Below the pieces are notes generated by a model, which saw only the letters and a list, made by a program, of their open reading frames with translations, had not been told where the DNA came from and made no database searches. 18,359 bases of DNA, from contig JAIPJR010000057.1 in the NCBI GenBank assembly GCA_021734045.1, positions 1 to 18,359 of the forward strand. Direction: 5' to 3'. Both the position numbers and the translations under genes were made by a program. The stretch's first letter is position 1; each line of letters opens with the position of its first letter. The DNA comes from Fidelibacterota bacterium (GTDB taxonomy: Bacteria > Fidelibacterota > UBA8477). This document shows positions 3,725-18,359 of the stretch, one piece after another.

Positions 3725-3742
3725 GATGGTGAGGTTAACAAT

Positions 3743-6700
3743 ATGATTGAACGCATTATCGAATGGTCCGTTAACAATCGTTTCATCGTCATCCTGGCAA
3801 CGCTGTTTGTGATTGTGGGCGGCTATATCGCCATGACCACCACACCGCTGGATGCCATACCCGATCTCAGTGATGTCCAGGTGATTATTCAGACCAAATA
3901 TCCGGGGCAGGCACCGCAGGTTGTGGAAGATCAGATCACCTATCCGCTTACCACGGCCATGTTATCGGTCCCCTTCGCCAAAGTGGTGCGCGGCTATTCC
4001 TTTTTCGGAATATCCTTCGTCTATATCATTTTCGAAGATGGGACGGATATGTACTGGGCGCGGAGTCGCGTGCTGGAGTACCTGAATTTCGTATCGGGAA
4101 GGCTCCCGGATGGTGTGAATCCACAACTGGGTCCGGACGCAACCGGTGTGGGGTGGGTCTATGAGTACACGGTAGAGAGTGAAGTCCACGACCTGCAGCA
4201 ATTACGCGCCATACAGGATTATTACCTGCGGTACGAACTCATGGCCGTTCCGGGTGTCTCGGAAGTGGCCAGTATCGGTGGTTTTGTGAAGCAGTATCAG
4301 GTGGATGTGGACCCCAGTAAGTTGCTGGCTTATAACATTCCGCTGAACAAGGTGAAAATGGCGATTAAGCGTAGCAATAATGATGTTGGTGGGCGCCTGG
4401 TGGAGATGGCGGAGACCGAATTCATGGTGCGCGGTTTGGGATACATTAAAAGTATTGATGACATCAAAGCCATCCCTGTGGGTGTGGATGACAATGGCAC
4501 CCCGATTCTGATTCGCAATATCGCTGATGTGCATTTGGGCCCCGATCTGCGGCGTGGTCTGGCTGAGCGGGATGGCGTGGGGGAAACGGTGGGAGGCATC
4601 ATTGTGATGCGCTATGGCGAAAATGCCATGGACGTGATTCGCAAGGTGAAGGAAAAATTAGAGGATCTCAAGCCTGGTCTTCCGGAGGGCATGGAGGTGA
4701 AACCAGCCTATGACCGGTCACTTCTGATCCAGCGGGCGGTGGATAATCTAACCGCCAAACTATTGGAGGAGATTATCATTGTCTCCATCATCTGCATCAT
4801 CTTCCTGCTCCATTTTCGCAGTGCCTTTGTGGTGATTTTTACCTTACCGGTTGGCATTTTACTCGCCTTCCTGATTATGCGCTATCAGGGCATTAATGCC
4901 AATATCATGTCGTTGGGCGGAATCGCAATCGCCATCGGTGTCATGGTGGATGCGGCTATTGTCATGATCGAGAATGTCCATAAGCACCTGGAGCGGGATA
5001 ATGGCGACGAAAGTCATTGGCAAATCGTCCTGAAAGCCTCAAAAGAGGTGGGACCGTCGCTGTTTTACTCTCTGCTCATCATCACCGTTTCTTTCGTACC
5101 CGTGTTCAGTTTGCAGGCGCAAGAGGGGCGACTTTTTCGGCCGCTGGCGTATACAAAGACCTATGCCATGGCAGCCGCGGCAATTCTGGCTATCACCATT
5201 GTGCCGGTGTTGATGGGCTATTTCATCCGGGGAAAAATTCTGCCGGAAGAACGCAATCCCATTAGTAGATTCCTCATCCGGATTTATCGACCGATTATCC
5301 GATTCGTACTGCATTTCCGGAAAACGACCCTGGTAATCGCAGGTGTAGCGCTCCTGGTGACTGTATGGCCGCTCCGGCAATTAGGATCGGAATTCATGCC
5401 CCCAATCAACGAAGGGGATCTGCTTTACATGCCTACCACCGATCCGGGAATTTCCATTACCAAAGCACGGGAGTTGCTCATGCAGACGGATCGCATTATC
5501 AAAGGCTTTCCTGAAGTGGAGCAGGTATTCGGTAAAATCGGACGGGCAGAAAGCGCCACGGACCCGGCACCACTGAGCATGCTGGAAACCACCATTACCC
5601 TGAAGCAACCGGACGAGTGGCCGGCCCGGAAATATGAAACCCGGTTTTACAGCGATTGGTCACTACCGACATTTTTGCGGTCTCCGCTGGAATGGATCTG
5701 GCCAACGCGCCGACCGGTTACCATGGACGAACTCACCACCGAGCTCAATGCCGCCATTCAATTTCCCGGTCTTACCAATGCCTGGACCATGCCCATTAGA
5801 ACCCGGATTGATATGCTCAGCACCGGGATTAAAACACCGGTGGGCATTAAAGTCATGGGGAATGACCTGGATACGCTGAATGAGGTGGCCGGAAAAATTC
5901 AATCTATCGTGCAGAAAATTCCCGGGACACTCAGCGCCTATGCTGATAAGGTGACCGGTGGAAATTTCTTAGACTTTGAAATCCGTCGCTCTGAGGCAGC
6001 CCGTTATGGTCTCACGGTTGGTGATATTCAGGACATTATCCAATCCGCAATAGGCGGCATGAATGTGACCTACACGGTGGAGGGTCGTGAGCGCTATCCG
6101 GTGAATGTACGCTATAGCCGGGAGTTGCGTGACACCGTGGAGAAACTCCGCCGCACCATAATTCCCACACCTGTGGGCGCGCAGATCCCCATTTCCCAGG
6201 TGGCGGATATCCGGATTAAAAAAGGTGCTCCTGTGATAAAAAGTGAAAATGCCCGGATGACGGGATGGGTGTATGTTGACCTGAGCGGTATTGATGTGGG
6301 TACATATGTCCGGAATGCCAAAACGGTTCTGGCACGGGAAATTCAGCTTCCGGAAGGCTATTCGCTGGTATGGAGCGGACAATATGAGTACATGGAGCGT
6401 GCGAACAAGCGCCTGAAAATCGTGGTTCCGGTTACCCTGCTCATCATCTTTCTGTTGCTCTATTTCAACTTTCGCAACATGACGGAAAGTCTTATCGTCA
6501 TGCTGTCCTTACCCTTCACGCTTATCGGCGGAATCTGGTTCATGTACTTTTTGGGGTACAATCTGAGCGTAGCTGTGGGAGTAGGCTTTATCGCGCTGGC
6601 CGGCTTGGCGGCTGAAACCGGCGTTGTGATGCTTATTTATCTGGATGGTGCGTATAAAAATCGCAAGCAAAATGGTCGCATGCAATCGGTGAAAGATCTC

Positions 6701-6946
6701 TACGATGCCGTTATGGAAGGCGCTGTTGATCGCGTCCGACCCAAAATGATGACGGTAGCGTCCACCATGCTGGGATTGGTGCCGATTTTATGGGGAACCG
6801 GAACCGGTTCACAGGTGATGAAGCGCATTGCTGCACCCATGGTTGGCGGTCTGGTAACATCCACCATTCTGACACTGGTGGTCATTCCCACGATCTACTT
6901 CATCTGGAAGTCGATTGAGCTAAAGCGCAAGAACTTGGAGGTATGA
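3743..6946 (+). CDS. cusA: CusA-like heavy-metal RND efflux pump
   Basis: This is the proton-driven inner-membrane pump of the tripartite complex, 1067 residues, with GGTGAGG upstream of the ATG. It aligns along its length with CusA: YPGQAPQVVEDQITYPLTT, FEDGTDMYWARSRVLEYL, GPDATGVGWVYEY and the TM4 proton-relay segment GGIAIAIGVMVDAAIVMIENVHKHL with its Asp, which marks the heavy-metal (HME) RND subfamily. Two of the three CusA metal-site methionines are kept: M613 (APLSML, equivalent to CusA M573) and M691 (RIDML, M623). The third, CusA M672 in RYGMTV, is Leu757 here (RYGLTV). About 30 residues (near 625-660, rich in Trp, Pro and Arg) are inserted in the porter domain relative to E. coli CusA. 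Cu(I)/Ag(I) is the likely substrate given the neighbours, but the altered triad leaves room for another specificity. Confidence 0.93.
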   Translation: MIERIIEWSVNNRFIVILATLFVIVGGYIAMTTTPLDAIPDLSDVQVIIQTKYPGQAPQVVEDQITYPLTTAMLSVPFAKVVRGYSFFGISFVYIIFEDGTDMYWARSRVLEYLNFVSGRLPDGVNPQLGPDATGVGWVYEYTVESEVHDLQQLRAIQDYYLRYELMAVPGVSEVASIGGFVKQYQVDVDPSKLLAYNIPLNKVKMAIKRSNNDVGGRLVEMAETEFMVRGLGYIKSIDDIKAIPVGVDDNGTPILIRNIADVHLGPDLRRGLAERDGVGETVGGIIVMRYGENAMDVIRKVKEKLEDLKPGLPEGMEVKPAYDRSLLIQRAVDNLTAKLLEEIIIVSIICIIFLLHFRSAFVVIFTLPVGILLAFLIMRYQGINANIMSLGGIAIAIGVMVDAAIVMIENVHKHLERDNGDESHWQIVLKASKEVGPSLFYSLLIITVSFVPVFSLQAQEGRLFRPLAYTKTYAMAAAAILAITIVPVLMGYFIRGKILPEERNPISRFLIRIYRPIIRFVLHFRKTTLVIAGVALLVTVWPLRQLGSEFMPPINEGDLLYMPTTDPGISITKARELLMQTDRIIKGFPEVEQVFGKIGRAESATDPAPLSMLETTITLKQPDEWPARKYETRFYSDWSLPTFLRSPLEWIWPTRRPVTMDELTTELNAAIQFPGLTNAWTMPIRTRIDMLSTGIKTPVGIKVMGNDLDTLNEVAGKIQSIVQKIPGTLSAYADKVTGGNFLDFEIRRSEAARYGLTVGDIQDIIQSAIGGMNVTYTVEGRERYPVNVRYSRELRDTVEKLRRTIIPTPVGAQIPISQVADIRIKKGAPVIKSENARMTGWVYVDLSGIDVGTYVRNAKTVLAREIQLPEGYSLVWSGQYEYMERANKRLKIVVPVTLLIIFLLLYFNFRNMTESLIVMLSLPFTLIGGIWFMYFLGYNLSVAVGVGFIALAGLAAETGVVMLIYLDGAYKNRKQNGRMQSVKDLYDAVMEGAVDRVRPKMMTVASTMLGLVPILWGTGTGSQVMKRIAAPMVGGLVTSTILTLVVIPTIYFIWKSIELKRKNLEV

Positions 6947-6950
6947 ATCA

Positions 6951-7298
6951 ATGAAGGAAATCAAAGCATATATCAGAACCAACAAGGTGGAGAAAACGCT
7001 CGCTGCGTTGAAGAAAATCGGTATCCAGAACATGACCGTTATTGATGTAATGGCCTTGGGGCAGGGCATGCTGGATCGTGCTGATTACAAATATTCCATG
7101 GCGCTTGTGGAGCGGTATTCTACGATTGCTAAACTGGAAATCATTGTTCCAGATAATCAATCAGAACGAACTGTGGAAACCATCCGTTCTGCTGCCTATA
7201 CCGGTGAGAGTGGCGATGGCCTGATCCTGGTATCATCAGTTGAATTTGCTCAAAAGGTCCGCTCCGGAAAACAAGGGGAGACAATTGTTCAAGCCTGA
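6951..7298 (+). CDS. PII-like signalling protein associated with metal RND efflux
   Basis: The 115-residue protein has the PII fold signature: an N-terminal MKEIKAYIRTNKVEKTLAAL strand-helix, a B-loop TGESGDGLILV (T84-G90 and on), and a C-loop-like VRSGKQGE near the end. The T-loop lacks the usual Q-K-G-h and Y-R-G-x-E-Y residues, so uridylylation and the classical ammonium partners are not expected. A divergent PII group, called PII-NG in the literature, is known next to CusA/CzcA-type efflux genes and fits this context. The gene starts four bases after the pump stop with a GGAGG site, so it is in the same operon. A role in sensing nucleotides and modulating the pump or the ATPase is inference; its ligand is unknown. 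Confidence 0.82.
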   Translation: MKEIKAYIRTNKVEKTLAALKKIGIQNMTVIDVMALGQGMLDRADYKYSMALVERYSTIAKLEIIVPDNQSERTVETIRSAAYTGESGDGLILVSSVEFAQKVRSGKQGETIVQA

Positions 7299-7357
7299 AA
7301 TGATTGTTCTCCAAAATCAATCTCTGTCAAATCAACGCTGATGTAAATGGAGAAAAA

Positions 7358-9730
7358 ATGACTAATAAACTTCAAGCCACCGATCCAGTATGCGGCATGA
7401 CCGTTGACCAGGAGGAGGCATTTTCAACCGTATTTAAAAGTACAACCTACTATTTTTGCTCGGAGCATTGCCTGCACAAGTTCCAGGCTGAACCGGAGAA
7501 ATATGCCCAAACCGAGCAGGAGAGTGAGGACGAAAATGAGTACAAAGAAGAGCCGGTGCATCATCACCATCGCGCAGAAAATCATCCGGCTCAACCTGAA
7601 GCGGTAACACAGACCGGAAGTGTGAAATACACGTGCCCCATGCACCCCGAGGTGATTCAGGATCATCCTGGCGCTTGTCCTAAATGCGGTATGGCATTAG
7701 AACCCATGACGGTTTCCAGTTCTGACGAGGAAGAAAATCCTGAATTGGCGGATATGACACGCCGATTTAAAATCAGTTTGCTGCTGGGAGTACCCGTTTT
7801 GCTTCTGGCTATGGGAGAGATGTTTCTGCCGTGGAATTGGTTGAAAAGCCCGGCCATCCTGTGGATTCAAATCCTGCTGGCGTCACCGGTGGTGCTTTGG
7901 GGTGGGGCTCCATTTTTTGACCGCGGTTGGAAGTCGCTGGTGTATAAAAGTCCCAATATGTTCACACTCATCGGACTCGGGGTCGGTGTGGCTTATGTGT
8001 ACAGCCTGATCGCTGCACTCTTCCCTGAGATTTTTCCCGAGGCATTTCGAGATGCGCATGGCAAGGTGGCAATTTATTTCGAAGCAGCGTCCACCATTAT
8101 CATTCTGGTATTGCTAGGTCAGGTTCTGGAGTTGCGCGCCCGGAGTCGCACCAGCTCGGCAATTAAGGCTTTACTGGGACTGGCACCCAAGACCGCCCGC
8201 CTGGTCAGGGCGAATGGTGATGAGGCGGATGTGCCCCTGGAAAATGTTCAGCAAGGTGATCATCTCCGGGTCCGGCCCGGTGAAAAAGTTCCCGTGGATG
8301 GTGAGATTCTTGAGGGGAAAAGCATCATCGATGAATCCATGGTGACCGGGGAGCCTGATCCGGTGAAAAAAGCAAGCGGTGATGGCGTAACCGGGGGGAC
8401 GATCAATGGTAATGGCAGTTTTGTCATGGTTGCCCAGCGGGTTGGCAGCGAGACGCTACTCAGTCAAATCGTCCAGATGGTTTCGGAAGCCCAGCGCAGT
8501 CGCGCACCCATTCAGGGCTTGGCAGACAAGGTATCTGCTTATTTCGTGCCAGCGGTGGTTATCATCAGTTTTATTACATTTGCCGTCTGGGCTTGGATCG
8601 GACCAGAACCCCGGCTCGCGTATGCATTGGTGAATGCGGTAGCCGTCTTAATTATCGCCTGCCCCTGCGCACTGGGTTTGGCGACGCCGATCTCGATCAT
8701 GGTTGGAACCGGGCGCGGAGCAACTGCAGGTATTTTGATCCGTAACGCGGAGGCGCTGGAGGCTATGGAAAAAATTGATACACTGGTCGTGGATAAAACC
8801 GGCACGCTCACCGAAGGAAAACCAAGGTTGGTAGCCGCTGATCCTGTTGATGGCGTGGATGAAAATGAATTAATCGGATTGGCGGCATCACTGGAACAAC
8901 AAAGCGAACATCCACTGGGGCAGGCCATTTTGAATGCTGCGAAAGAACGCGATTTGGCATTGCGCAAACCTTCCGAATTCAACGCGGAGACTGGCAAAGG
9001 CATCACCGGGACTATTGATGGGGAACAGCTTCTGGTAGGAAATCAGCGTCTGTACGAACAGTTGAATATCCCCATTGAGGAAGCAGTGGTTCAGTCCAAA
9101 GGCCGGTCTGAATCGGGTGCTACCATGGTATGGATTGCCCGGGAAGGAAAGCACCTGGGTGTTCTCGAAATTCGCGACCCAATCAAATCCAGTACAGCGG
9201 GAGCCATCAGAGGTTTGCGGGAAGCGGGAATTCATGTGGTGATGCTCACTGGTGATAAGCGCGAAACAGCAGAAGCAGTGGCCCGGGAGTTGGGCATTGA
9301 TGAGGTGGAGGCTGAGGTGTTGCCACAGGACAAACACGCGGTTGTAAAGCGTTTACAGGATGAAGGTAAGCGAGTTGCCATGGCGGGCGATGGCGTGAAC
9401 GATGCACCGGCATTGGCGCAGGCCACTGTTGGTATTGCCATGGGTTCCGGGACCGATGTAGCCATTCAAAGTGCTGGAATCACGCTGGTGAAGGGTGATC
9501 TGGAAGGCATTCGTAAAACTGTCCATCTTAGCCATGCCACCATGCGAAACATTCGGCAAAATCTGTTTTGGGCTTTTGGCTACAATAGTCTTGGTGTACC
9601 CGTGGCTGCCGGCGTGCTGTATCCCGTTTTTGGACTGTTGCTAAGCCCGATTATTGCCGCCGCAGCCATGAGTTTCAGTTCGGTTTCGGTGATCACGAAT
9701 GCGCTGCGCTTAAAACGGATTGAACTATGA
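7358..9730 (+). CDS. copA: P1B-1-type copper-exporting ATPase with N-terminal YHS and HMBD modules
   Basis: This ATPase exports Cu(I), and possibly Ag(I), from the cytoplasm across the inner membrane. ATG 7358 is preferred (GGAGAAAAA just upstream); an in-frame TTG at 7304 lacks a site. The protein is 790 residues. A YHS domain (about 7-48: DPVCGM, then YFCSEHC) is followed by a His-rich linker (H68-H71) and one HMBD (91-117: YTCPMHP, then CPKCGM). There is no CxxC HMA domain of the usual CopA kind. Core motifs are intact: TGE in the actuator domain, transport motif C435-P-C437, phosphorylated D479 in DKTGT, and GDGVND (G677-D682). The later membrane-helix signatures Y742-N743 and M771-S-x-SS match the P1B-1 copper class. 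It lies 59 bases after the PII-like gene. Confidence 0.93.
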
Positions 9731-9744
9731 AGGAGGGTATAGCA

Positions 9745-9822
9745 GTGAAAAATAATTACGTATATAGGAGTGGGATGAACCACTCAACAATCACGGAGGT
9801 TAACGATGGTTTTTCATGGTGA
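9745..9822 (+). CDS. Possible 25-residue ORF overlapping the next gene's start
   Basis: A GTG at 9745 has a very strong AAGGAGGG site seven bases upstream, and the frame runs 25 codons to TGA 9820-9822, overlapping the next start out of frame. An internal ATG at 9775 also has its own AGGAG site and would give a 15-residue peptide. Otherwise the ATPase-to-next-gene gap contains nothing to explain that strong site. The peptide has no recognisable features. It may be a coupling leader or just a chance frame. Confidence 0.25.
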   Translation: MKNNYVYRSGMNHSTITEVNDGFSW

Positions 9823-10297
9823 CATTGCAATCGCATTAACACTCATTGCCTTGGGTGTTGGCTATCTCGTTATGGTGAAAGCTGGAAAAGAGGAAAATAG
9901 TGGCTCCAGAACGATCGGTCTCATCATCGGATGGATCGTAATCGTTGTTGCTGCCATCACTTTCCTATGCGCATCCTACTACACGGTGCGTTATTGGGAC
10001 GATGGGTATTATGAATCCCCGCGGCCCATGATGATGGAGGGGCGTAACCTGATGAACAGCGGCAAGATGATGCCGGGCATGATGGGTGGCCACGGGATGC
10101 GGGACGGCATGCCGGACAAAAACTGTCAGCACGAAGGTGGCATGCGCGACCATTGTAACAAGCTGCAAAAAGACCAATGCAGGCAAAAAATGCATGATAA
10201 AATGGGAATGTCTGGTAAAATGACTCCCGGTATGCATCATCCCGGTGGTGGTGGAATGATGCCGGGGATGCAAAATCCGGACAGCACGAATCAATAA
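9806..10297 (+). CDS. Met/His-rich two-span membrane protein, probable copper-binding
   Basis: The 163-residue protein starts at ATG 9806 behind an ACGGAGG site. Two membrane segments are clear (about 6-24 and 37-57), joined by a short charged loop. The hydrophilic C-terminal 100 residues hold about 19 methionines in MMM, MMPGMM, GMRDGM and MMPGM patterns, plus several His and three Cys. With this topology the tail probably lies on the periplasmic side if both ends are periplasmic (inference). Met-rich motifs of this kind bind Cu(I)/Ag(I) in CusF, PcoC/PcoE and SilE-type proteins, but no homologous fold is visible. It could hand metal from the ATPase to the efflux adaptor or buffer it. I know no family name. 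Confidence 0.75.
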   Translation: MVFHGDIAIALTLIALGVGYLVMVKAGKEENSGSRTIGLIIGWIVIVVAAITFLCASYYTVRYWDDGYYESPRPMMMEGRNLMNSGKMMPGMMGGHGMRDGMPDKNCQHEGGMRDHCNKLQKDQCRQKMHDKMGMSGKMTPGMHHPGGGGMMPGMQNPDSTNQ

Positions 10298-10380
10298 GTA
10301 TAAAGAATGAGTGTGGTATCAGGGAGTGAGACGAAATCAAGACTAATTCGCCTTGCTTCCTGTTTTCCCGGGAGCGTTAG

Positions 10381-10617
10381 ATGATGTTCTCACATGGATG
10401 GTTTGGTGGGATGATGGGATGGGGCATTCTGTTCTGGATCGTTATCATCCTGCTGCTAATCTGGGTGGTCAAAACTCTGGTTGGTCGTCAGGAAACATCA
10501 CCCACCACCAATGACAATGGAAACGATAACGCGGAAGCCATTTTACGCAAACGCTATGCGCGGGGTGAAATCAGCCGCGAAGAATTTGAACAAATGAAAA
10601 ATGACTTAAGGAGGTAA
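10381..10617 (+). CDS. Small SHOCT-domain membrane protein
   Basis: The 78-residue protein begins MMFSHGWFGGMMGWG, has one membrane helix (about 15-33), a polar linker, and a C-terminal SHOCT domain (AEAILRKRYARGEISREEFEQ onward, residues about 51-78). SHOCT domains are short helical segments found at the ends of many small membrane proteins; a role in oligomerisation is proposed but unproven. Small SHOCT proteins with a Met/Gly/Trp/His-rich head often accompany copper ATPases and Cus-type genes, which agrees with its place here. The start may equally be ATG 10384; a GGGAG site is upstream. Its last codons contain AGGAGG, the ribosome binding site of the next gene. Confidence 0.8.
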   Translation: MMFSHGWFGGMMGWGILFWIVIILLLIWVVKTLVGRQETSPTTNDNGNDNAEAILRKRYARGEISREEFEQMKNDLRR

Positions 10618-10619
10618 CG

Positions 10620-11027
10620 ATGCGAAACACAATACTCATAACTCTGGCGGTGCCGGTGCTGGCGCTGCTACTGGTTGGCTGCAGTGGGAAAAAGGATGAT
10701 TCAGCTGCAAGTCATGATCATCAACAAATGAACAATACCATGACCCACGACGCTGAAATGAGCGCTGAAATGTCAGGGAAACAGGCTGGTGAGCGCTTTA
10801 TTTACTACACCTGTCCCATGCCAGAACACAAGCACATTCACAGCAAAGAACCCGGTCAGTGTACCGAGTGCGGAATGCCGTTGGTGCAGGCGGTGGTCAC
10901 CGATACCGCCCAGATGGAATTCTGGGGCTGTCCCATGGAGGCTCATTCCCATGTGCGGCATGAAAATTCAGGGAAATGCCCGGAGTGTGGCATGAACCTG
11001 AAGCCCATGCGACTGGTGAAAAACTAA
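10620..11027 (+). CDS. Lipoprotein consisting of two tandem HMBD metal-binding modules
   Basis: The 135-residue protein has a lipoprotein signal ending LVGC (lipidated C21), a Met/His-rich linker (SHDHQQMNNTMTHDAEM and on), then two heavy-metal-binding modules. The first (about 63-90) reads YTCPMPEHKHIH, then CTECGMPLV; the second (about 101-129) reads WGCPMEAHSHV, then CPECGMNLKPM. Both keep the CPM and CxxCGM ligands. The PMxxHxH variant resembles the two C-terminal modules of the CusB-like protein more than the canonical CPMHPEV modules. No transport or enzyme domain is present, so a membrane-anchored periplasmic metal buffer or chaperone is the likely job (inference). Its start lies two bases after the SHOCT gene stop, and it is the last gene before the candidate terminator. 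Confidence 0.85.
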   Translation: MRNTILITLAVPVLALLLVGCSGKKDDSAASHDHQQMNNTMTHDAEMSAEMSGKQAGERFIYYTCPMPEHKHIHSKEPGQCTECGMPLVQAVVTDTAQMEFWGCPMEAHSHVRHENSGKCPECGMNLKPMRLVKN

Positions 11028-11051: not shown

Positions 11052-11097
11052 CGGAACCGGTGGGGAAATTATTCGCGCCGGTTTCGTGGGTTTGTTG
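11052..11097 (+). terminator. Candidate intrinsic terminator of the metal-resistance operon
   Basis: CGGAACCGG at 11052-11060 pairs with CCGGTTTCG at 11078-11086 (nine pairs including one G-T), with a 17-base loop, followed by the T-rich TGGGTTTGTTG. The loop is long and the T-run broken, so termination may be partial. Its position 25 bases after the last metal gene supports the call. Confidence 0.4.
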
Positions 11098-11103
11098 TAT
11101 ATT
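11098..11103 (+). promoter_or_regulatory. Possible -10 element (TATATT) for the downstream regulatory operon
   Basis: TATATT directly follows the candidate terminator. No convincing -35 hexamer lies 16-18 bases upstream, so this is a weak prediction based mainly on position. Confidence 0.25.
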
Positions 11104-11135
11104 CATTCTGAACGTGAACAGGAAAGAAAGGTGTT

Positions 11136-11192
11136 ATGAATCACCACTCACCCGGATTGGTCCGGGATGAATCGTCAAATAGGGTGGACTAA
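11136..11192 (+). CDS. Possible 18-residue leader peptide ahead of the PP2C phosphatase gene
   Basis: ATG 11136, behind AGGAAAGAAAGGTG, opens an 18-codon frame (MNHHSPGLVRDESSNRVD) whose TAA (11190-11192) ends one base before the ATG at 11194. A perfect hairpin (CCCGGA-TTGG-TCCGGG, 11151-11166) lies inside it. The tight junction suggests translational coupling to the phosphatase. No function can be read from the peptide. Confidence 0.35.
   Translation: MNHHSPGLVRDESSNRVD
11151..11166 (+). other. Short GC-rich hairpin in the leader of the phosphatase gene
   Basis: CCCGGA (11151-11156) and TCCGGG (11161-11166) form a perfect 6-bp stem with a TTGG tetraloop. It lies immediately before the ATG at 11167, which would hinder initiation there and supports ATG 11194 as the phosphatase start. 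It could modulate translation of the leader ORF or the phosphatase. Confidence 0.45.
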
Positions 11193-11193
11193 C

Positions 11194-11922
11194 ATGTTTT
11201 GGACAGGATACGGTGCCACCGATGTGGGTCTGCGGCGCGATCAAAACGAAGATGCTTTCCTGGTTGATAATGAGCGGGGCTGGTTTGCTGTGGCTGATGG
11301 GGTGGGTGGTACCCCGGGCGGTGGCATTGCCAGTAAACTGGCTATTATTGAATTTAAATCACGCCTGTCGGAATTGGCAAAATCTGCATCTCTGGTCAGT
11401 GATGACACCGCCCCGGCTGTTATCAGGGGTATAAATAATGCCATCGTGGATTTTGGATTGACCCATCAATCCACACCAAATCTGGCCACAACTTTTACCG
11501 CTTTGGTTATACTCACTACCAATCAAGGGTATCTTTTACACGCGGGGGATTCCAGATTGTACGGATTTCATGATGAATTGGGGTTGACTGCTTTGACAGC
11601 AGAACACACGCTGGCGACCGAGCGGCGGAACCAGGGACTGGAATCCGGGCGTCCTGAGGACGAGAATGTCCTGGTCAACTGCATGGGTAATCTGAACATG
11701 AATTGGACTGAATACCGGAGCATTGACCTGGCGAATTATGATGCTTTTCTGCTCTGCTCCGATGGCTTGAATAAAATGGTTCCCCACGACCGGTTGGAAC
11801 AGATTATGCGTGGCAATTGGCGTGACCCCCAAACCTGTGTGGGTCGCATGATTGATTCGGCATTGAATGTGGGCGGATATGATAATACCACCGCCATCAT
11901 GATAAAGCGACAGAACGAGTGA
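11194..11922 (+). CDS. PP2C-family Ser/Thr protein phosphatase
   Basis: This soluble metal-dependent phosphatase removes phosphate from Ser/Thr residues and probably counteracts the kinase encoded three genes downstream. From ATG 11194 it has 242 residues, the usual single-domain bacterial size (Stp1/PstP/PrpC type). The canonical motifs are all present: TDVGLRRDQNEDAF, VADGVGG with a metal-binding Asp, LLHAGDSRLYGF, LLCSDGLNKMV and GYDNTTAIMI. An upstream in-frame ATG at 11167 would add nine residues, but a hairpin sits against it, and GGGTGGA upstream of 11194 is the better site. The phosphatase is the first gene of the second operon. In other bacteria PP2C enzymes commonly pair with Hanks-type kinases. 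Confidence 0.9.
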   Translation: MFWTGYGATDVGLRRDQNEDAFLVDNERGWFAVADGVGGTPGGGIASKLAIIEFKSRLSELAKSASLVSDDTAPAVIRGINNAIVDFGLTHQSTPNLATTFTALVILTTNQGYLLHAGDSRLYGFHDELGLTALTAEHTLATERRNQGLESGRPEDENVLVNCMGNLNMNWTEYRSIDLANYDAFLLCSDGLNKMVPHDRLEQIMRGNWRDPQTCVGRMIDSALNVGGYDNTTAIMIKRQNE

Positions 11923-11931
11923 ACAATTAGC

Positions 11932-12930
11932 GTGAATCCGGTACGCACTATTCTGGTCAGTTGCCTTTTGTGTAGTCTTCTGTTCTGGCATTGCATGCAG
12001 GACGCCCCCCGGGATAATATTTTTGATCCGGAAAGTGGGTTGTACGACCGCAGTGGCGCGATTCAGGGTGTGATTACGGGAAAATATCCACCGTATGAAC
12101 CCCTCGAAGCTGTGCTGGTGACCGTAACCCTCACCGAACTGCAGCTATTTACCACCACAAATGGAGCGGGTAAATTTGCATTCTCACAGGTTAAACCTGG
12201 TAGCGGGCTGATTACCTGTACTGCAGGTGACTATGTGACTAAGGACGATACCGTGCAGATACCGGAGGGTCAGGCTGTAAATTTATCTATTCGACTGAAT
12301 GGTAAGCCGCGAATCGCCACGGTTAATCTGATTACAAAGCACATTTCCCACTGGCAGCCGGTAGAGGATGAATATGTTCTGGAAGTGGAGGCAGAGGTGA
12401 GCGATCCGGATGGTGCACCCGATGTGGATTCGGTGCGGTTCCAAATCCCGGCCTGGGAATTTGATACACTTTTGACAACCGGTGCAGATCAGGGGGTGTA
12501 TCAGGGTGTTTATTTCGACGATGACTTCGGGGCAGCCTTCCCGGAGTTGGAGGGTGAATCGATTCGGCTGCGGTGTGGTGATCAATCGGGTGATTGGGGA
12601 GAATGGTACACCACTCAAATTTCCAGACTTATCGTGTCCGTTCCCCAAATTTTATCACCAGCGGGACTGGCTACGGTGGATTCGCTGCCCGTTTTTCGCT
12701 GGTCCCATTTTGATGCCGGATTTCAGGTGCAGTATCAGGTGGATATATTTCGCTTGAATGAGTTGGCCATCCCCCAATTTGTTCAATCAAGTCCCGCTCT
12801 TGCGGATACCACGCTGCAATGGCAGACCCAAGCGTCCCTCGCGCCGGCGCGCTACTACTGGACCATCTCGGTAATGGATCGCTACGGTAACATCAGCGTC
12901 TCCAAAGAAGCCGCATTTAGGGTGGATTGA
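11932..12930 (+). CDS. Lipoprotein with a carboxypeptidase-regulatory-like domain and an Ig/Fn3-like domain
   Basis: The gene starts at GTG 11932, nine bases after the phosphatase stop. Residues 1-21 form a lipoprotein-type signal ending LFWHC. The His before the Cys is atypical, but the C-x4-PRDN-x-x-DPES sequence after it is a familiar start of lipoproteins in this part of the FCB group. Residues about 42-125 resemble a carboxypeptidase regulatory-like (beta-sandwich) domain: IQGVITG, TTTNGAGKFAFSQV and TVQIPEG. The C-terminal third (PQILSPAG, VFRWSHFDAG, YYWTISVMDRYGN) looks like an Ig or Fn3-type domain. No enzyme motif is visible. Located between phosphatase and activator genes, it may be an envelope-side partner of the signalling module (inference). 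Confidence 0.75.
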   Translation: MNPVRTILVSCLLCSLLFWHCMQDAPRDNIFDPESGLYDRSGAIQGVITGKYPPYEPLEAVLVTVTLTELQLFTTTNGAGKFAFSQVKPGSGLITCTAGDYVTKDDTVQIPEGQAVNLSIRLNGKPRIATVNLITKHISHWQPVEDEYVLEVEAEVSDPDGAPDVDSVRFQIPAWEFDTLLTTGADQGVYQGVYFDDDFGAAFPELEGESIRLRCGDQSGDWGEWYTTQISRLIVSVPQILSPAGLATVDSLPVFRWSHFDAGFQVQYQVDIFRLNELAIPQFVQSSPALADTTLQWQTQASLAPARYYWTISVMDRYGNISVSKEAAFRVD

Positions 12931-12934
12931 CATT

Positions 12935-14416
12935 ATGACCTCACCCCGCCAGGACGATTTTTTTAATGCGCTGCTGAAAATCAGTGAAGCACTGCTGGAA
13001 GGTTCCGCTACACGCCTCTTACTGGAGCGGATTCTGGATATTGCCATGGAGGTAACCGAGGCAGAGCGGGGGTTCCTGTTCATCAAAAGTCTGCAGCGCG
13101 AGAATGATATCGTCCCGTCCATTTACCGGAATTTTGATCCACGGCATTTCGCAGAGAAGGAGCGCTACTCCATCGGCGTGCTGGAGCAGGTTATGCAGAC
13201 CGGTGAACCGGTGGTCACAATCAATGCGGAGGAAGATGAGCGTTTTAAAGGCCGGGAAAGTGTGGTCATCAACAAACTCACCTCCATCATCTGCGTGCCG
13301 ATTCGCAAACAAAAAATGGTGTTGGGATATATCTATCTGGACAGTCAGGAGCGGCGTGCCCATTTCAATCTGGAGACGCTGAATTTCATGCGGGTTTTTG
13401 CCAATCAAACCGCGATAGCACTTGAAGCAGCTGATTTTGTAAACCGACTGGCACTGGAAAATGAAGCCTTAAAAGCCCAATCCGATACCCCCTCGCCTTT
13501 CGAGGAGATCATTGGTGAGAGCCCTGAAATGCACGCCATTTTTCGTCTGACCCGCCGGGTGATGGAAACGGAATTGCCGGTTCTCATTCTGGGTGAAAGC
13601 GGAACCGGCAAGGAACTCATTGCCCGGGCGATCCACTATCGCGGTGCACGCAAGAATAAGCCTTTTATTGCGCAGTTTTGCGGTGCCTTGGCTGATAATC
13701 TTCTGGAGAGTGAGCTTTTCGGTTATAAAAAAGGCGCCTTCACCGGAGCCGGCAGGGATAAACCGGGCTTACTGGAGGCCGCGGATGGCGGGACATTTTT
13801 CCTGGATGAGATTGCCGATGTTTCCCTGGAGATTCAGACCAAATTGCTGCGCTTTCTGCAGGAGGGTGAATTTCGGCGGGTTGGAGACACGCAGGTCCGG
13901 ACGGTGGATACCCGTATCATCGCGGCGACCAATAAAGATTTGGACCAACTGGTGAAAGATGGCGCTTTCCGCGAGGATTTGTATTACCGGCTCAATGTGG
14001 TGTCGGTAAAAATGCCTGCTTTGCGGGAGCGTCGTGGCGATTTACCCATTCTGGCTGAACATTTTCTGACGAAATACCGGGAGAAGTATCACCGTAATGT
14101 GGAAAAATTCAGCCGGGCAGCCATGGCAGCGATTTTACACCACGACTGGCCGGGGAATGTACGGGAATTGCAAAATGCCATTCAGCGGGCGGTGACATTA
14201 TGTCCCGGAAACATCATTGAACCGGAGCATCTGGCCTTGGGGCGGGGTGATGCGTCATTCACTGCGGAGCCCGTGACAATGGCCGAGATGGAGCGACGGT
14301 TTGTGTTAGAGACACTGTCTGAAATGGGGGGAAATCGTACAAAAACGGCGGAACGGTTAGGCGTATCCCTGCGCTGGCTCCAGTATCGTCTGAAGGATTG
14401 GCATGTTGAAGATTAA
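12935..14416 (+). CDS. Sigma-54-dependent transcriptional activator: GAF, AAA+, Fis-type HTH
   Basis: The 493-residue protein is an enhancer-binding activator that remodels RNA polymerase carrying sigma-54. An N-terminal GAF domain (about 20-165, FNALLKISEALLEG to FANQTAIALEAA) replaces the usual response-regulator receiver, so control would come from a ligand, a protein partner or phosphorylation by a kinase. The AAA+ domain (about 185-420) is complete: Walker A GESGTGKE (220-227), the sigma-54 contact loop GAFTGA (267-272), Walker B with D291-E292, and WPGNVRELQNAIQRA. A Fis-type helix-turn-helix closes the protein (TKTAERLGVSLRWLQYRLKDW). The start ATG 12935 lacks a strong site and follows the lipoprotein stop by four bases. 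The stop overlaps the kinase start by 14 bases, which implies coupled expression of activator and kinase. Confidence 0.93.
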   Translation: MTSPRQDDFFNALLKISEALLEGSATRLLLERILDIAMEVTEAERGFLFIKSLQRENDIVPSIYRNFDPRHFAEKERYSIGVLEQVMQTGEPVVTINAEEDERFKGRESVVINKLTSIICVPIRKQKMVLGYIYLDSQERRAHFNLETLNFMRVFANQTAIALEAADFVNRLALENEALKAQSDTPSPFEEIIGESPEMHAIFRLTRRVMETELPVLILGESGTGKELIARAIHYRGARKNKPFIAQFCGALADNLLESELFGYKKGAFTGAGRDKPGLLEAADGGTFFLDEIADVSLEIQTKLLRFLQEGEFRRVGDTQVRTVDTRIIAATNKDLDQLVKDGAFREDLYYRLNVVSVKMPALRERRGDLPILAEHFLTKYREKYHRNVEKFSRAAMAAILHHDWPGNVRELQNAIQRAVTLCPGNIIEPEHLALGRGDASFTAEPVTMAEMERRFVLETLSEMGGNRTKTAERLGVSLRWLQYRLKDWHVED

Positions 14417-16052
14417 GGGCTATCAGATTCAGAGCGTTCTGGAAGAGCGGAACGATTTGATTATTGCCAAGGCGATTCAGACCTCATTGGACCGTATCGT
14501 TTTTCTGAAAATCCTCACCAAAATGGCTGACGCACCGGACATCAGGGAACAATTTACCCGGGAAGCCAAACTGCTGGCCAGGCTCAATCACGCCAATATC
14601 GTGACCATCCACGAATTCAACGCCCATCATGAACCCCCCTACCTGGTGTTGGAATATTTTTCCGGTGAGGACATGTCACGGGTCTTGGCCAATCAGGGCA
14701 CTTTGAAACCGGAAATCCTGGGGGAGGTGATGCGGCAGTCTCTGGCCGGTTGCGCTAAAGCCCATGCTGCCGGCATTCTACACCGCGATTTGAAACCGGC
14801 AAACCTGCTCATGAACCAGGATGGTCAGGTGAAAATCACCGATTTTGGACTGGCTGCAGTATTGGAGCAAACCCGGCAACCCGTTGCCGGATCGCCCGGC
14901 TACCTTGCTCCCGAACTGGCGTTGGGTGAAGCGCCCACACCGCAAAGTGATATCTACGCCCTGGGCATGACATTCTACACGCTGGCGACAGGTGAAAACC
15001 CCTTGATTGGTCAGAATCTGAATGACACGCTCAATCTGGCCATCAAATCCAACCCCAAAAATCTTGCCGAGATCCGTCCGGATTTACCAGGAGAGTTGGT
15101 AAAAATTATTCATCGCATGATTCGGAAAGAGGCTGGCGACCGGTATCAGGATTGTGAGACAATTTTGGAGCACCTTGGGGATTTGGCAGTGGTCAAACCC
15201 TCCAGCCGCAACTTACAGCCTGAACTTGGTCCTTCCGCATTCCGGCCCCGTTTCGGTAAAAATGACCCGGTAAAGGATTTGGACCTGCTGGATACGCCTT
15301 CCCGCAAAGATTGGCTGCTGGGGCTGGCGTTCTTTGTTTTACTGGTCATTGCAATCTACTCCTGGAGCAACAGTAAAAAGCCCGACAGTGTGGTTCCATA
15401 CCCAGTGATGGTTCCTGAAACTTCCCGGGTGGATACCGGAACCATGTTTCAGTCACGCAGTCCCATACCGGATGATGCAAACGATCAGGAGACTAAAACA
15501 GCGTCATACCCAGAGGGAGAGGGCGTCACAACTGAGGCGCAGGAAACACAAGCTGAAGATACATCCACAAATGCTCCGCGCATTTTCAGTGAATCCAAAT
15601 CCTCAGCTCCGGCGAATGAATCGGGGTTACTTTTCCTGGCAGCCATTCCCTGGGCACAGGTTCACCTGGATGGTGAGACTGTCGGCACAACGCCATTTGC
15701 AGAGCCCATTACCATGACACCGGGACAGCATACTGTGCAATTTTTGCATCCTGATTACCCGAAACTCACCAAATTGGTGGATATTCAGGCGGGAAAAACC
15801 GATTCCGTATGGTTGAATTGGCGAACGGAATTAGGATTTTTATCTATTAATGTTTTTCCATGGGCGGACATTTACGTGAATTCCGATTCTGTGGATGTCA
15901 CGCCGATTGAGAAACCATTACCGCTGCAACCCGGTGAGTATCAATTACTTTTGAAGAATCCTGATTTTCCGCCCTGGCATCGTTTCGTTCAAATTACCGC
16001 CGGTGACACCCTGGAAATCACCGCCCGCTTAGGTCAGGTCAGCGCACCTTGA
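14403..16052 (+). CDS. Transmembrane Ser/Thr protein kinase (Hanks type) with two extracytoplasmic PEGA domains
   Basis: The 549-residue membrane kinase has its catalytic domain in the cytoplasm (about 7-265). It keeps K36 (VFLKIL), HRDLKPAN (catalytic D129), DFG (D147-G149) and GYLAPE. The ATP-binding glycine loop is strikingly degenerate: residues 13-24 (LEERNDLIIAKA) contain no glycine. One membrane helix (about 304-322) leads to a Ser/Thr/Glu-rich linker and two PEGA-type repeats (about 407-475 and 477-545), each with a hydrophobic start, PWAxxxxxxxxxxxTP and a PGxHxV or PGxYxL turn. PEGA domains are surface or envelope beta-domains often fused to such kinases. Likely target candidates are the overlapping sigma-54 activator and the phosphatase substrate pool (inference). 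Confidence 0.92.
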   Translation: MLKIKGYQIQSVLEERNDLIIAKAIQTSLDRIVFLKILTKMADAPDIREQFTREAKLLARLNHANIVTIHEFNAHHEPPYLVLEYFSGEDMSRVLANQGTLKPEILGEVMRQSLAGCAKAHAAGILHRDLKPANLLMNQDGQVKITDFGLAAVLEQTRQPVAGSPGYLAPELALGEAPTPQSDIYALGMTFYTLATGENPLIGQNLNDTLNLAIKSNPKNLAEIRPDLPGELVKIIHRMIRKEAGDRYQDCETILEHLGDLAVVKPSSRNLQPELGPSAFRPRFGKNDPVKDLDLLDTPSRKDWLLGLAFFVLLVIAIYSWSNSKKPDSVVPYPVMVPETSRVDTGTMFQSRSPIPDDANDQETKTASYPEGEGVTTEAQETQAEDTSTNAPRIFSESKSSAPANESGLLFLAAIPWAQVHLDGETVGTTPFAEPITMTPGQHTVQFLHPDYPKLTKLVDIQAGKTDSVWLNWRTELGFLSINVFPWADIYVNSDSVDVTPIEKPLPLQPGEYQLLLKNPDFPPWHRFVQITAGDTLEITARLGQVSAP

Positions 16053-16091: not shown

Positions 16092-17333
16092 ATGAAGAAA
16101 TTTATCGCAATACTAATCCACGTTGTGCTCTTGCGTGTCATGCTGCAGGCTGGAGATGGCTATTGGGTTGAGCGGGCATCCATTCCCGAATCCCGCTCCC
16201 AGCACGCCGCCGTTGTTGTGGATGGGACGGTGTACCTTACCGGTGGCCGAACTGCCGGACCAGCCATGATGGCGACCAGGTCACAATTGTGGGCATACCA
16301 TCCTGATACAGATGAATGGTTCACCAATCTCCCGGACATGCCGGAACCCCGGGAAGATCATGTGATGGTGGCAACTGGTGATACGCTCTGGGTGTTTGGT
16401 GGACGGAACCATAACACCATGGTCACCTCTGTGGTTTACTGGATTGTGGGTGCTCCGGCCTGGCAAGAGGCTGGTGAAATGCCATTGCCAAGAGAGGGGA
16501 TGGGCGCTACCACCTACGGTGGCAAGATATACCTGGTCGGCGGGAAAGCATCCCATGCCATGTGGGCTTCACCGGTATCGCGTGTGGATGAGTTTGATCC
16601 TCAAACCTGGCAATGGACCGTCAGCGATACACTTCAGCAAGCCCGTGTGGGCTTCGCCTGGGCAGCCCATGGAGATACAGTTCTCTGTGCCGGCGGACGA
16701 TTTCTGGATCCGTTGGCCAGTGTGGAGCGCCGGATTGATGGAAATGCCTGGGAGGCAGCACCGCAATTAAACGGACCCCGTAGCGATGGTGCTGCTGTCT
16801 TTTTTGAGGGAAATTTCGTCCTGCTGGGCGGTGTCGGTTCTGAAGGACAATCCGGGAATAATCTGGTGTTCGACGGTACAAGTTGGCAGACATTTGAACC
16901 CAATTTGCTCCCCAGATATGAAGAAACAGCCGTTGTCGTCGATAATGCTATCCTGGTCATGGGGGGCCGGAATGGTAATCAACTTCTGGCATCCACTGAA
17001 CAGTACATAATCCTCACCGCGTCAGCGGAGGAACCGGAATTACCAGCTGAAATGGTGTTGATGCAGGCCTATCCCAATCCCTTCAACGGGTCGTTGCGTG
17101 TGGCCATCACCCTTGATGAGCGTGTTTATTCTGTGCATGTTGTGGATGTTTACAATTTACAGGGACAACGGGTTCACTCATACGCAGTGCAGGCGGGCGG
17201 CGGATCTGTCCTGACCATGCGAATCCAGGGCGCTGATCTGGGGGCAACCGGGGTTTATCTCATGGTATTGCGCTATCAAACCAGCGATGGAACGCAACAC
17301 CAGCTTCTGCACAAACTCACCTATCTGAAATAA
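16092..17333 (+). CDS. Kelch-repeat beta-propeller protein with type IX secretion C-terminal sorting domain
   Basis: The 413-residue protein has an N-terminal signal (MKKFIAILIHVVLLRVMLQA) and six kelch motifs, with the paired glycines at about 51-52, 103-104, 150-151, 201-202, 246-247 and 291-292. Spacing of 45-52 residues suggests a complete six-bladed propeller. The C-terminal 90 residues are a T9SS type A sorting domain: AYPNPFN (326-332), then VVDVYNLQGQRV and LGATGVYLMVLRY. Such proteins are exported by the Sec pathway, passed through the type IX machine, and attached to or released from the surface. No catalytic residues are evident. Its location behind the PEGA kinase suggests a surface ligand-binding or adhesion component read by the signalling proteins (inference). 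Its TAA stop overlaps the next ATG by one base. Confidence 0.88.
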   Translation: MKKFIAILIHVVLLRVMLQAGDGYWVERASIPESRSQHAAVVVDGTVYLTGGRTAGPAMMATRSQLWAYHPDTDEWFTNLPDMPEPREDHVMVATGDTLWVFGGRNHNTMVTSVVYWIVGAPAWQEAGEMPLPREGMGATTYGGKIYLVGGKASHAMWASPVSRVDEFDPQTWQWTVSDTLQQARVGFAWAAHGDTVLCAGGRFLDPLASVERRIDGNAWEAAPQLNGPRSDGAAVFFEGNFVLLGGVGSEGQSGNNLVFDGTSWQTFEPNLLPRYEETAVVVDNAILVMGGRNGNQLLASTEQYIILTASAEEPELPAEMVLMQAYPNPFNGSLRVAITLDERVYSVHVVDVYNLQGQRVHSYAVQAGGGSVLTMRIQGADLGATGVYLMVLRYQTSDGTQHQLLHKLTYLK

Positions 17334-18040
17334 TGTCTGCCATTACCCGGCAATTTGTTTTAATACTCCTACTCGCGATCGCCGTTGCAGGTCAGGACAA
17401 ACCTCTTGCACTAAATGACGTGCAACAGCTGTACGAAAATCTTCAGTACCATCAGGTGGTTTCACAAGTAAAAGCGGAACTGGAAGCACGTCCCCAGCAA
17501 CCGCTCGTGCGCTTGGAAGTATTGCTGAAATATCTGGCCCTGGCGCAAGTTTCTCTGGGACGGGAAGCCGAAGCGCGGGGAACCCTGGCATCGTTGGTTT
17601 TGGTGAACCCGGATTTTCAATTTCAACCCACCGAGGTCTCTCCCAAAATCATGGAGCTCTTTGACGATGTGCGCAGTGAATATGTACGATCCGGTTCCAT
17701 CGGGCAGTCTCAACCAACCTATCTGGTTCAAACAGACCTCCGCTCTCAACTCATTTTAAAGTCACTCACCTTTCCAGGTTGGGGACAGATTAAGGCCGGC
17801 AAGAAACGCGGTTATGTCTGGGGAACCGTTTTTGGTGCCGCCCTGGCCGGTAGCGCTATCGCAGCTTACCAGACCCAACAAACCCACACAGACTATTTAG
17901 ATGCCTACACATCCCATGAAATCAGCACCCGCTATAACACTTACAATCAATGGTATCAAACACGCAACACGCTGATTCTGAGTGCCATCCTGATATACAC
18001 CGGCAATGTGCTGGATATCTCGTTTTTCACCACACCATAA
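17333..18040 (+). CDS. Exported helical-repeat protein with a DUF5683-like membrane C-terminus
   Basis: The 235-residue protein has a signal sequence (ITRQFVLILLLAIAVAGQ), a helical region about 25-115 that reads like one or two TPR-type repeats (LYENLQYHQVVSQVKAELEA, then LKYLALAQVSLGREAEAR), and a C-terminal part beginning LILKSLTFPGWGQIKAGKK. The PGWGQ-x-K-x-G-K-x-x-GY pattern followed by hydrophobic helices resembles the DUF5683 family, of unknown function and frequent in the FCB group. The start overlaps the kelch gene stop (TAATG), so the two are translationally coupled. It could anchor or assemble envelope components; I see nothing that fixes its function. Confidence 0.7.
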   Translation: MSAITRQFVLILLLAIAVAGQDKPLALNDVQQLYENLQYHQVVSQVKAELEARPQQPLVRLEVLLKYLALAQVSLGREAEARGTLASLVLVNPDFQFQPTEVSPKIMELFDDVRSEYVRSGSIGQSQPTYLVQTDLRSQLILKSLTFPGWGQIKAGKKRGYVWGTVFGAALAGSAIAAYQTQQTHTDYLDAYTSHEISTRYNTYNQWYQTRNTLILSAILIYTGNVLDISFFTTP

Positions 18041-18068: not shown

Positions 18069-18106
18069 CACGCAAAATCTGCGTGCAGGCCATGCAAAAT
18101 CTGCAT
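18069..18106. promoter_or_regulatory. Tandem palindromes, candidate enhancer (upstream activating) sites
   Basis: CACGCA-AAATC-TGCGTG (18069-18085) and ATGCA-AAATC-TGCAT (18092-18106) are two palindromes of the same design with identical AAATC centres. They are offset by 22 bp, about two helical turns, so they face the same side of DNA. One arm base pair differs in a compensated way (C/G in the first, T/A in the second). Their centres are about 130 and 108 bases upstream of the start predicted for the sigma-54-like promoter, a typical distance for enhancer-binding activators. No T-run follows, so a terminator is unlikely. Confidence 0.55.
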
Positions 18107-18180
18107 ATGACCAGGCAGTTTCATGGGATAATAACCTGAAAGAATGTCATAAAACTAATAGAAACAGCATCTAAGAGCGA

Positions 18181-18196
18181 TGGCACGAAAGTTGGT
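18181..18196 (+). promoter_or_regulatory. Candidate sigma-54 promoter (-24/-12)
   Basis: TGGCACG-AAAG-TTGGT fits the sigma-54 consensus TGGCACG-N4-TTGCW. The -24 element matches at all seven bases and the spacing is exact; the -12 element has GG where GC is usual. Transcription would start near 18207, leaving about 28 bases before ATG 18235, enough for the AAAGGAG site at 18222-18228. A complete sigma-54 activator gene lies 4 kb upstream. Confidence 0.5.
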
Positions 18197-18234
18197 CTAT
18201 ACCCTAGCAGAATTTGAATACAAAGGAGTTTACG

Positions 18235-18359
18235 ATGAGAACACGAATGACAATTTTAGCACCAGCAGCACTGGCAGTAATCTTTGCGTTCACCAATCCG
18301 GTGTCGGCGCAGGGTATGGGAGGACCGGGCGGAGGCCACGGACACATGTTCGATTCTGA
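18235..18359 (+). CDS. Exported Gly/His/Met-rich small protein, N-terminal part, runs off the right edge
   Basis: ATG 18235 stands six bases after a strong AAAGGAG site and opens a frame that continues to the window end (41 codons). It begins MRTRMTILAPAALAVIFAF and continues TNPVSAQ, a clear signal sequence with cleavage after VSA, followed by the Gly/His/Met-rich mature start GMGGPGGGHGHMFDS. This style of mature N-terminus is common in Spy/CpxP-like periplasmic chaperones and small metal-binding proteins of the FCB group, but too little is visible to assign a family. It begins a new transcription unit, separated by 194 bases from the preceding gene and preceded by the sigma-54-like promoter. 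Confidence 0.7.
   Translation, partial: MRTRMTILAPAALAVIFAFTNPVSAQGMGGPGGGHGHMFDS

Follow-up and report, generated by a model that had tools for sequence, protein, structure and literature searches.

A predicted sigma-54 switch with paired palindromic boxes at the end of a GAF-activator operon in a Fidelibacterota bacterium and in other phyla

Among the enhancer-dependent systems described so far, NifA and FhlA combine a GAF sensor with an AAA+ domain and a Fis-type HTH, and their paired boxes are sited ahead of a sigma-54 promoter; ZraR has a receiver domain and a partner histidine kinase. The NtrC box is TGCACCAnnnTGGTGCA, i.e. GCA-N9-TGC (PMC8743547), and the boxes of the NifA/FhlA type read TGT-N10..12-ACA (PMC6615313). 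We analysed an 18,359 bp stretch of DNA, here called the window, which has near its end an intergenic region resembling each of these systems in part (Table 1). The likeness to NtrC lies in a -24/-12 promoter preceded by two dyads of ~17 bp whose spacing is about two helical turns, and in an AAA+ GAFTGA activator with a Fis-type HTH; however, the activator encoded here carries a GAF domain but lacks a receiver domain, and the target is an exported protein. A sequence-only reading of the stretch had called the arrangement NtrC-type, which suits the geometry; the box, however, is a different one, with GCA-N5-TGC in place of GCA-N9-TGC, and an NtrC box proper was rejected for this reason. NifA and FhlA share with the present case a GAF, AAA+ and Fis HTH activator and paired boxes upstream of a sigma-54 promoter, whereas the box differs and the operon that encodes the activator here also includes genes for a PEGA Ser/Thr kinase and a PP2C phosphatase. 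The best solved-structure match to the activator is the AAA+/HTH part of ZraR, and as in ZraSR-ZraP a local sigma-54 activator is thought to drive one adjoining exported-protein gene; but the activator has no receiver-domain match and the operon no histidine kinase, so that it does not class as a ZraR, the target family is unrelated to ZraP, and the metal link here is a neighbourhood hint in the genus of the window. We found no description of this circuit in the open-licence literature.

Table 1. Features of the window and similar box pairs elsewhere in the phylum
Feature	Position	Strand	Remarks
Window (whole contig G000:C21)			18,359 bp; genome G000 of 2.54 Mb, 119 contigs, 92% complete
PP2C-type phosphatase, operon gene 1	11167..11922	+	Syntenic in G002 and G073
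Lipoprotein with CarboxypepD_reg domain	11932..12930	+	Conserved operon member
GAF-AAA+-Fis sigma-54 activator	12935..14416	+	Candidate box binder; Walker A, GAFTGA and Fis HTH intact
Ser/Thr kinase with PEGA domains	14403..16052	+	Conserved operon member
Kelch protein, sorting-domain-like tail	16092..17333	+	Kept in much of the family
DUF5683-like membrane protein	17333..18040	+	Last gene before the control region; Pfam match below curated cut-off
Box 1, candidate activator-binding, CACGCAAAATCTGCGTG (CACGCA-AAATC-TGCGTG)	18069..18085	+	Arms perfect; centre 18077 (-130)
Box 2, candidate activator-binding, CATGCAAAATCTGCATA (CATGCA-AAATC-TGCATA)	18091..18107	+	Outermost pair mismatched; centre 18099 (-108)
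Sigma-54 promoter element TGGCACGAAAGTTGGT	18181..18196	+	Predicted +1 at 18207
RBS AAAGGAG	18222..18228	+	From sequence reading; ATG of target at 18235
Target gene 5' part, exported Gly/His/Met-rich protein (332 aa)	18235..18359	+	Remainder on contig G000:C67
Similar pairs, L059 (G005:C22)	7204-7238 and 8231-8266		Near receiver-domain activators
Similar pair, L058 (G011:C33)	9952-9987		Near receiver-domain activators

Direct reading of the sequence bears out the layout that had been proposed: two near-identical dyads of 17 bp with their centres 22 bp apart, a perfect -24 and a near-match -12 element, and then a ribosome binding site and a new gene for an exported protein. Since the -24 GG (18182-18183) places the expected +1 at 18207, the dyads sit at -130 and -108. 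The promoter has GG at -25/-24 and G at -13, 10 bp apart, within TGGCAC-N5-TTG; the canonical C at -12 is lacking, with GG-N10-GG against the consensus GC at -13/-12 and TTGG instead of TTGC. Twin palindromes equally alike arose in none of 5000 dinucleotide shuffles of the intergenic region, a comparison in which no motif is assumed. The -24/-12 match taken alone is weak in one genome (27 matches observed at three or fewer mismatches, against 33 expected), and the weight of the promoter assignment rests on position and cross-species conservation. The pair pattern at 22 bp spacing, with up to two mismatches, occurs at only one place in the genome of the window, and at 21 bp spacing with up to one mismatch it occurs at no place. 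The last 131 bp of the contig (18229-18359) are common to positions 1-131 of G000:C67, and a contig of the sister genome G001 starts at the same base (G001:C138 6071); this looks like the product of co-assembled strains rather than biology.

The six genes upstream of the boxes form the regulator operon. Its activator is of the GAF type: a GAF domain, an AAA+ domain and a Fis HTH are present, with the GAFTGA loop and the HTH intact as had been claimed and the Walker A motif intact too, and a receiver domain is absent. A complete rpoN gene of 468 aa with an intact RpoN box (ARRTVAKYRE) is present on contig C47. This genome has ~12 sigma-54 activator genes in all, so that adjacency alone is insufficient to say which of them acts at the boxes. 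A search of contigs with the DUF5683-like protein as query gave no match, and we found no open-licence literature on DUF5683 in bacteria or on this operon. Upstream of the PP2C gene, at ~11085-11115 of the window and at ~1015-1042 of the G002 locus L025, a stretch near GTTTCGTGGG...TTGTATATTC is kept in both genomes; this is possibly the operon's own, non-sigma-54 promoter.

Two boxes of the form YGCA-N5-TGCR, 19-22 bp apart and followed by a GG-N10-G element, recur after the same operon in four genomes of the phylum. The stop codon of the DUF5683-like gene served as the landmark for locating them, and in the window the boxes begin 28 bp downstream of it. The DUF5683-like protein is 61% identical to that of the window in G002, 43% in G004 (another family) and 38% in G073 (more distant). 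Downstream of it, G002 has the pair CGCAAATTCTGCGT..TGCATATTTTGCGT and the -24/-12 element TGGCATGACTCTTGGA, with the DUF5683 gene and the promoter region on two overlapping contigs; G004 has TGCAAACCTTGCGT..TGCATATTTTGCGT and TGGCACGCATATTGAA; and G073 has CGCAATTTCTGCGT..TGCAGATTTTGCAT and TGGCACGATCCTTGAG. The next gene is an orthologue of the exported protein of the window in G002 and G073, and the G004 contig stops at the ATG. Across 245 genomes of the phylum the exact 22-bp pair is found at four places, three of them syntenic (G000, G002, G004) and one elsewhere (G011), and the exact 21-bp pair at a single place, the syntenic spot in G073; reversed-pattern controls for both spacings gave no hits in the same 245 genomes. 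Under a strict cut-off (E 1e-100), orthologues of the activator are encoded in five of the 245, namely these four syntenic genomes and G001, whose contigs are interrupted in this region; exact pairs at 21-22 bp thus stand at the syntenic spot in 4/5 genomes with the orthologue. A natural negative control is provided by G003, which encodes a 47% homologue of the exported protein and lacks the operon, and in which neither pair nor promoter is found upstream of that homologue. Similar pairs also lie near loci for hybrid histidine kinases and receiver-domain sigma-54 activators in G005 (one mismatch) and G011 (exact), which suggests that boxes of this kind are recognised by several activators within the order.

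An argument from the palindrome arms did not survive this comparison. The sequence-only reading had seen a covarying arm base pair as a sign of selection on palindromic shape; the eight boxes of the four genomes give C-G three times, T-A twice and T.G three times at that position, and with T.G in 3/8 boxes the argument was dropped. The remainder of that reading, a complete enhancer-dependent sigma-54 control region, appears well supported in the genomes compared, given the presence of rpoN, the retention of the palindrome pair in related genomes and the conservation of the activator alongside it.

The operon, with its lipoprotein, activator, PEGA kinase, DUF5683-like gene and often the kelch gene, is distributed more widely, being found in the candidate phyla KSB1 and LCP-89, a Rhodothermaceae, Ignavibacteria and Calditrichota; these distant operons were located by scanning named genomes with an alignment of the activator. 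We took the eight boxes found in the four genomes of the phylum, derived a position matrix from them and ran it without alteration over the DNA downstream of DUF5683; it detected pairs, diverged in sequence, 19-21 bp apart in six held-out loci: L166 in LCP-89, L168, L169 and L231 in Ignavibacteria, and L170 and L171 in Calditrichota. Shuffle p values for the six range from 0.0005 to 0.021, with L166 and L169 weak, and the combined Fisher p is 1e-11; each pair is followed by a GG-N10-G element and then by a gene for an exported protein. In KSB1 (L164) and the Rhodothermaceae (L167) a convergent gene follows DUF5683, and neither pair nor promoter is present there.

The exact pair pattern was also run on 15 whole genomes, 11 of which hold distant relatives of the activator. 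Those 11 contain eight places that match, two of them (L243, L247) within coding sequence; each of the other six is followed on one strand, at 51-126 bp, by a sigma-54 element, where 0.35 would be expected. At L248, in the genome of L163, a DUF5683-like gene (24% identity, E 7e-18) is followed by the pair, the element TTGGCATGTTAGTTGAA and a Gly/His-rich gene of the target family, whereas L245 and L246 have pair and promoter away from the operon. The remaining three (L244, L249, L250) all belong to a single Calditrichota genome, G254: the pairs are near-identical, the sigma-54 elements are of the TTGAA type and exported genes lie downstream, so that the regulon can have several members there; on the locus of the G254 activator (L172) a kinase match is absent. 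In Ignavibacteria there is a further sigma-54-like promoter between the kinase and kelch genes (L169 4406-4517; L168 12034), accompanied in L169 by another box pair that overlaps the 3' end of the kinase gene.

Sixteen promoters downstream of pairs could be compared at the -12 position. GG-N10-G and TTG are invariant in all 16, part of which invariance stems from the search pattern, and the -12 base is A in eight, C in four, G in two and T in two. A C at -12 is common though not universal in verified sigma-54 promoters, and we therefore take the TTGG of the window as a lineage deviation and not as disproof. It seems that sigma-54 in these phyla does not need the canonical C, which suggests that standard scans will miss such promoters.

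The boxes are also placed regularly with respect to the promoter. With the box 2 centre and the leading G of the -24 element as end points, the distances in the first set of loci were 83, 83, 94, 63, 51, 105, 59, 168, 104 and 61, with a phase coherence R of 0.80 at 10.5 bp (p 0.0007, or 0.002 when the sister genome G002 is left out). For 15 loci R is 0.74 (p about 1e-4) with the best period near 10.75 bp; the later six loci on their own give p 0.054. The boxes are in turn about two helical turns from each other, and there are thus two dyads, phased mutually and with the promoter and conserved between species, as in a paired enhancer. Such a phase between boxes and promoter would be expected if an activator seated on one face of the helix looped to the promoter.

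The proteins encoded downstream point to the cell surface. The C-terminal sorting domain typical of type IX secretion cargo is found in the target: its G002 orthologue matches Por_Secre_tail, and the targets in other phyla have sorting-domain matches in six of six examined, four above the curated cut-off and two below. In a structural model that is otherwise poor (mean pLDDT 52), the predicted C-terminal fold of the target matches the CTDs of PorU, PorZ and RemA. The gene at the same position in other phyla encodes a C25 peptidase, a VWA-domain protein or CarboxypepD_reg-repeat proteins; as judged by these comparisons, the control unit is kept while the output gene changes. Members of the target family have in common an undescribed domain, ..DYVLNFGPPWYxP..RPxxGDxVTVTG..VVTELNGxxWR, which some relatives carry in two or three copies and for which there was no Pfam match (L057 432-1442, L129 3266-4177, L248 1528-2862, L108 and L109).

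Positions 658-11027 of the window form a heavy-metal efflux island, which encodes an outer-membrane factor, an HMBD membrane fusion protein, a CusA-type RND pump, a P-II-family protein (6951-7298), a YHS/HMBD copper-type P-ATPase and an HMBD lipoprotein. The HMBD lipoprotein precedes the operon in G002 too (L025 504-962), but not in G073. A metal-response reading of the circuit was rejected since this neighbourhood is not conserved in G073, and the metal link is thus a hint at genus level only.

The recognition helix of the HTH, GVSLRWLQYRLK, is identical in G000, G001, G002, G004 and the Ignavibacteria locus L231, and within the phylum of the window it is identical wherever readable; the L231 boxes match the window consensus well. 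The identical helix, the co-occurrence of pair and operon in 245 genomes and the position at the operon end make the adjoining GAF activator by far the best candidate for the protein that binds the boxes. The L231 activator (L231 2-757) has GAFTSA in place of GAFTGA, although in HTH and boxes few loci outside the phylum match better. A rival reading keeps the sigma-54 dependence of the promoter but assigns the boxes to another of the genome's activators, for example one of the response-regulator type; we regard it as unlikely. The genome does offer ~12 such genes, and YGCA-N5-TGCR pairs stand near the histidine-kinase/receiver-activator loci of G005 and G011, so that a group of activators may read this box type; yet across the 245 genomes the exact pairs follow the GAF-activator operon and not activators generally, the pair is found at the end of that operon in several phyla, and among 45 weaker pairs in loci of unrelated activators only one has a promoter nearby.

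Two further readings would separate the palindromes from the promoter or from sigma-54. Palindromes that start 28 bp past a stop codon, each able to form a stem of 5-6 bp, might be RNA hairpins at the operon end, serving as a terminator or 3' processing element unrelated to the promoter. The region, however, has neither a terminator-like site nor a T-run and does not qualify as an intrinsic terminator, and it folds no better than shuffles (z -0.33); on these two grounds the RNA reading was rejected. Moreover, it is the GCA and TGC bases that are conserved rather than pairing (T.G being tolerated at the variable position), the pairs in G002 and L231 lie ~180 bp past the stop and yet 61-83 bp from the promoter, and the boxes are in phase with it, all of which leaves hairpins an exceedingly improbable explanation. 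It is scarcely more credible, and still very improbable, that the boxes bind an unrelated dimeric regulator (a repressor or a non-sigma-54 activator) and that the -24/-12 resemblance is fortuitous: the imperfect -12 and the lack of significance of a -24/-12 match within one genome would allow this, but GG-N10-G and TTG are kept at phased spacing in the 16 promoters downstream of pairs, and the operon itself codes for a sigma-54 activator.

We therefore hold it to be highly likely that 18069-18196 serves a dedicated sigma-54 switch as its control region, with the GAF activator of the adjoining operon binding the boxes. As far as the genomes tell, this activator very probably works by the ordinary sigma-54 mechanism. 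The activator would bind both YGCA-N5-TGCR boxes on one helix face, probably as two dimers; the bound protein would loop to RNA polymerase-sigma-54 at TGGCACG-N4-TTGG and use ATP to open the promoter of the exported gene. As for the signal, gene order suggests that the PP2C phosphatase and the PEGA Ser/Thr kinase are probably involved, acting on the activator, and together with the lipoprotein and the DUF5683-like membrane protein they probably carry or gate it.

The principle of the sigma-54 switch is familiar; the novelty lies in the circuit, in its box and in how widely it is spread. More tentatively, and with the chances somewhat against so broad a claim, the operon and its control region may constitute a cross-phylum cassette of the wider Bacteroidota-related phyla, in which a GAF activator would be gated by PP2C, Ser/Thr kinase and envelope proteins, the enhancer and promoter at the operon end would stay fixed, and the output would be swapped between Gly/His-rich, C25 peptidase, VWA and CarboxypepD_reg-repeat proteins. 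Activator, predicted box, promoter and target form one testable unit in phyla with hardly any known transcriptional regulation. It has been proposed that sigma-54 controls the bacterial exterior (PMC3162934), and a circuit that would tie sigma-54 to the control of an exported surface protein fits this proposal.
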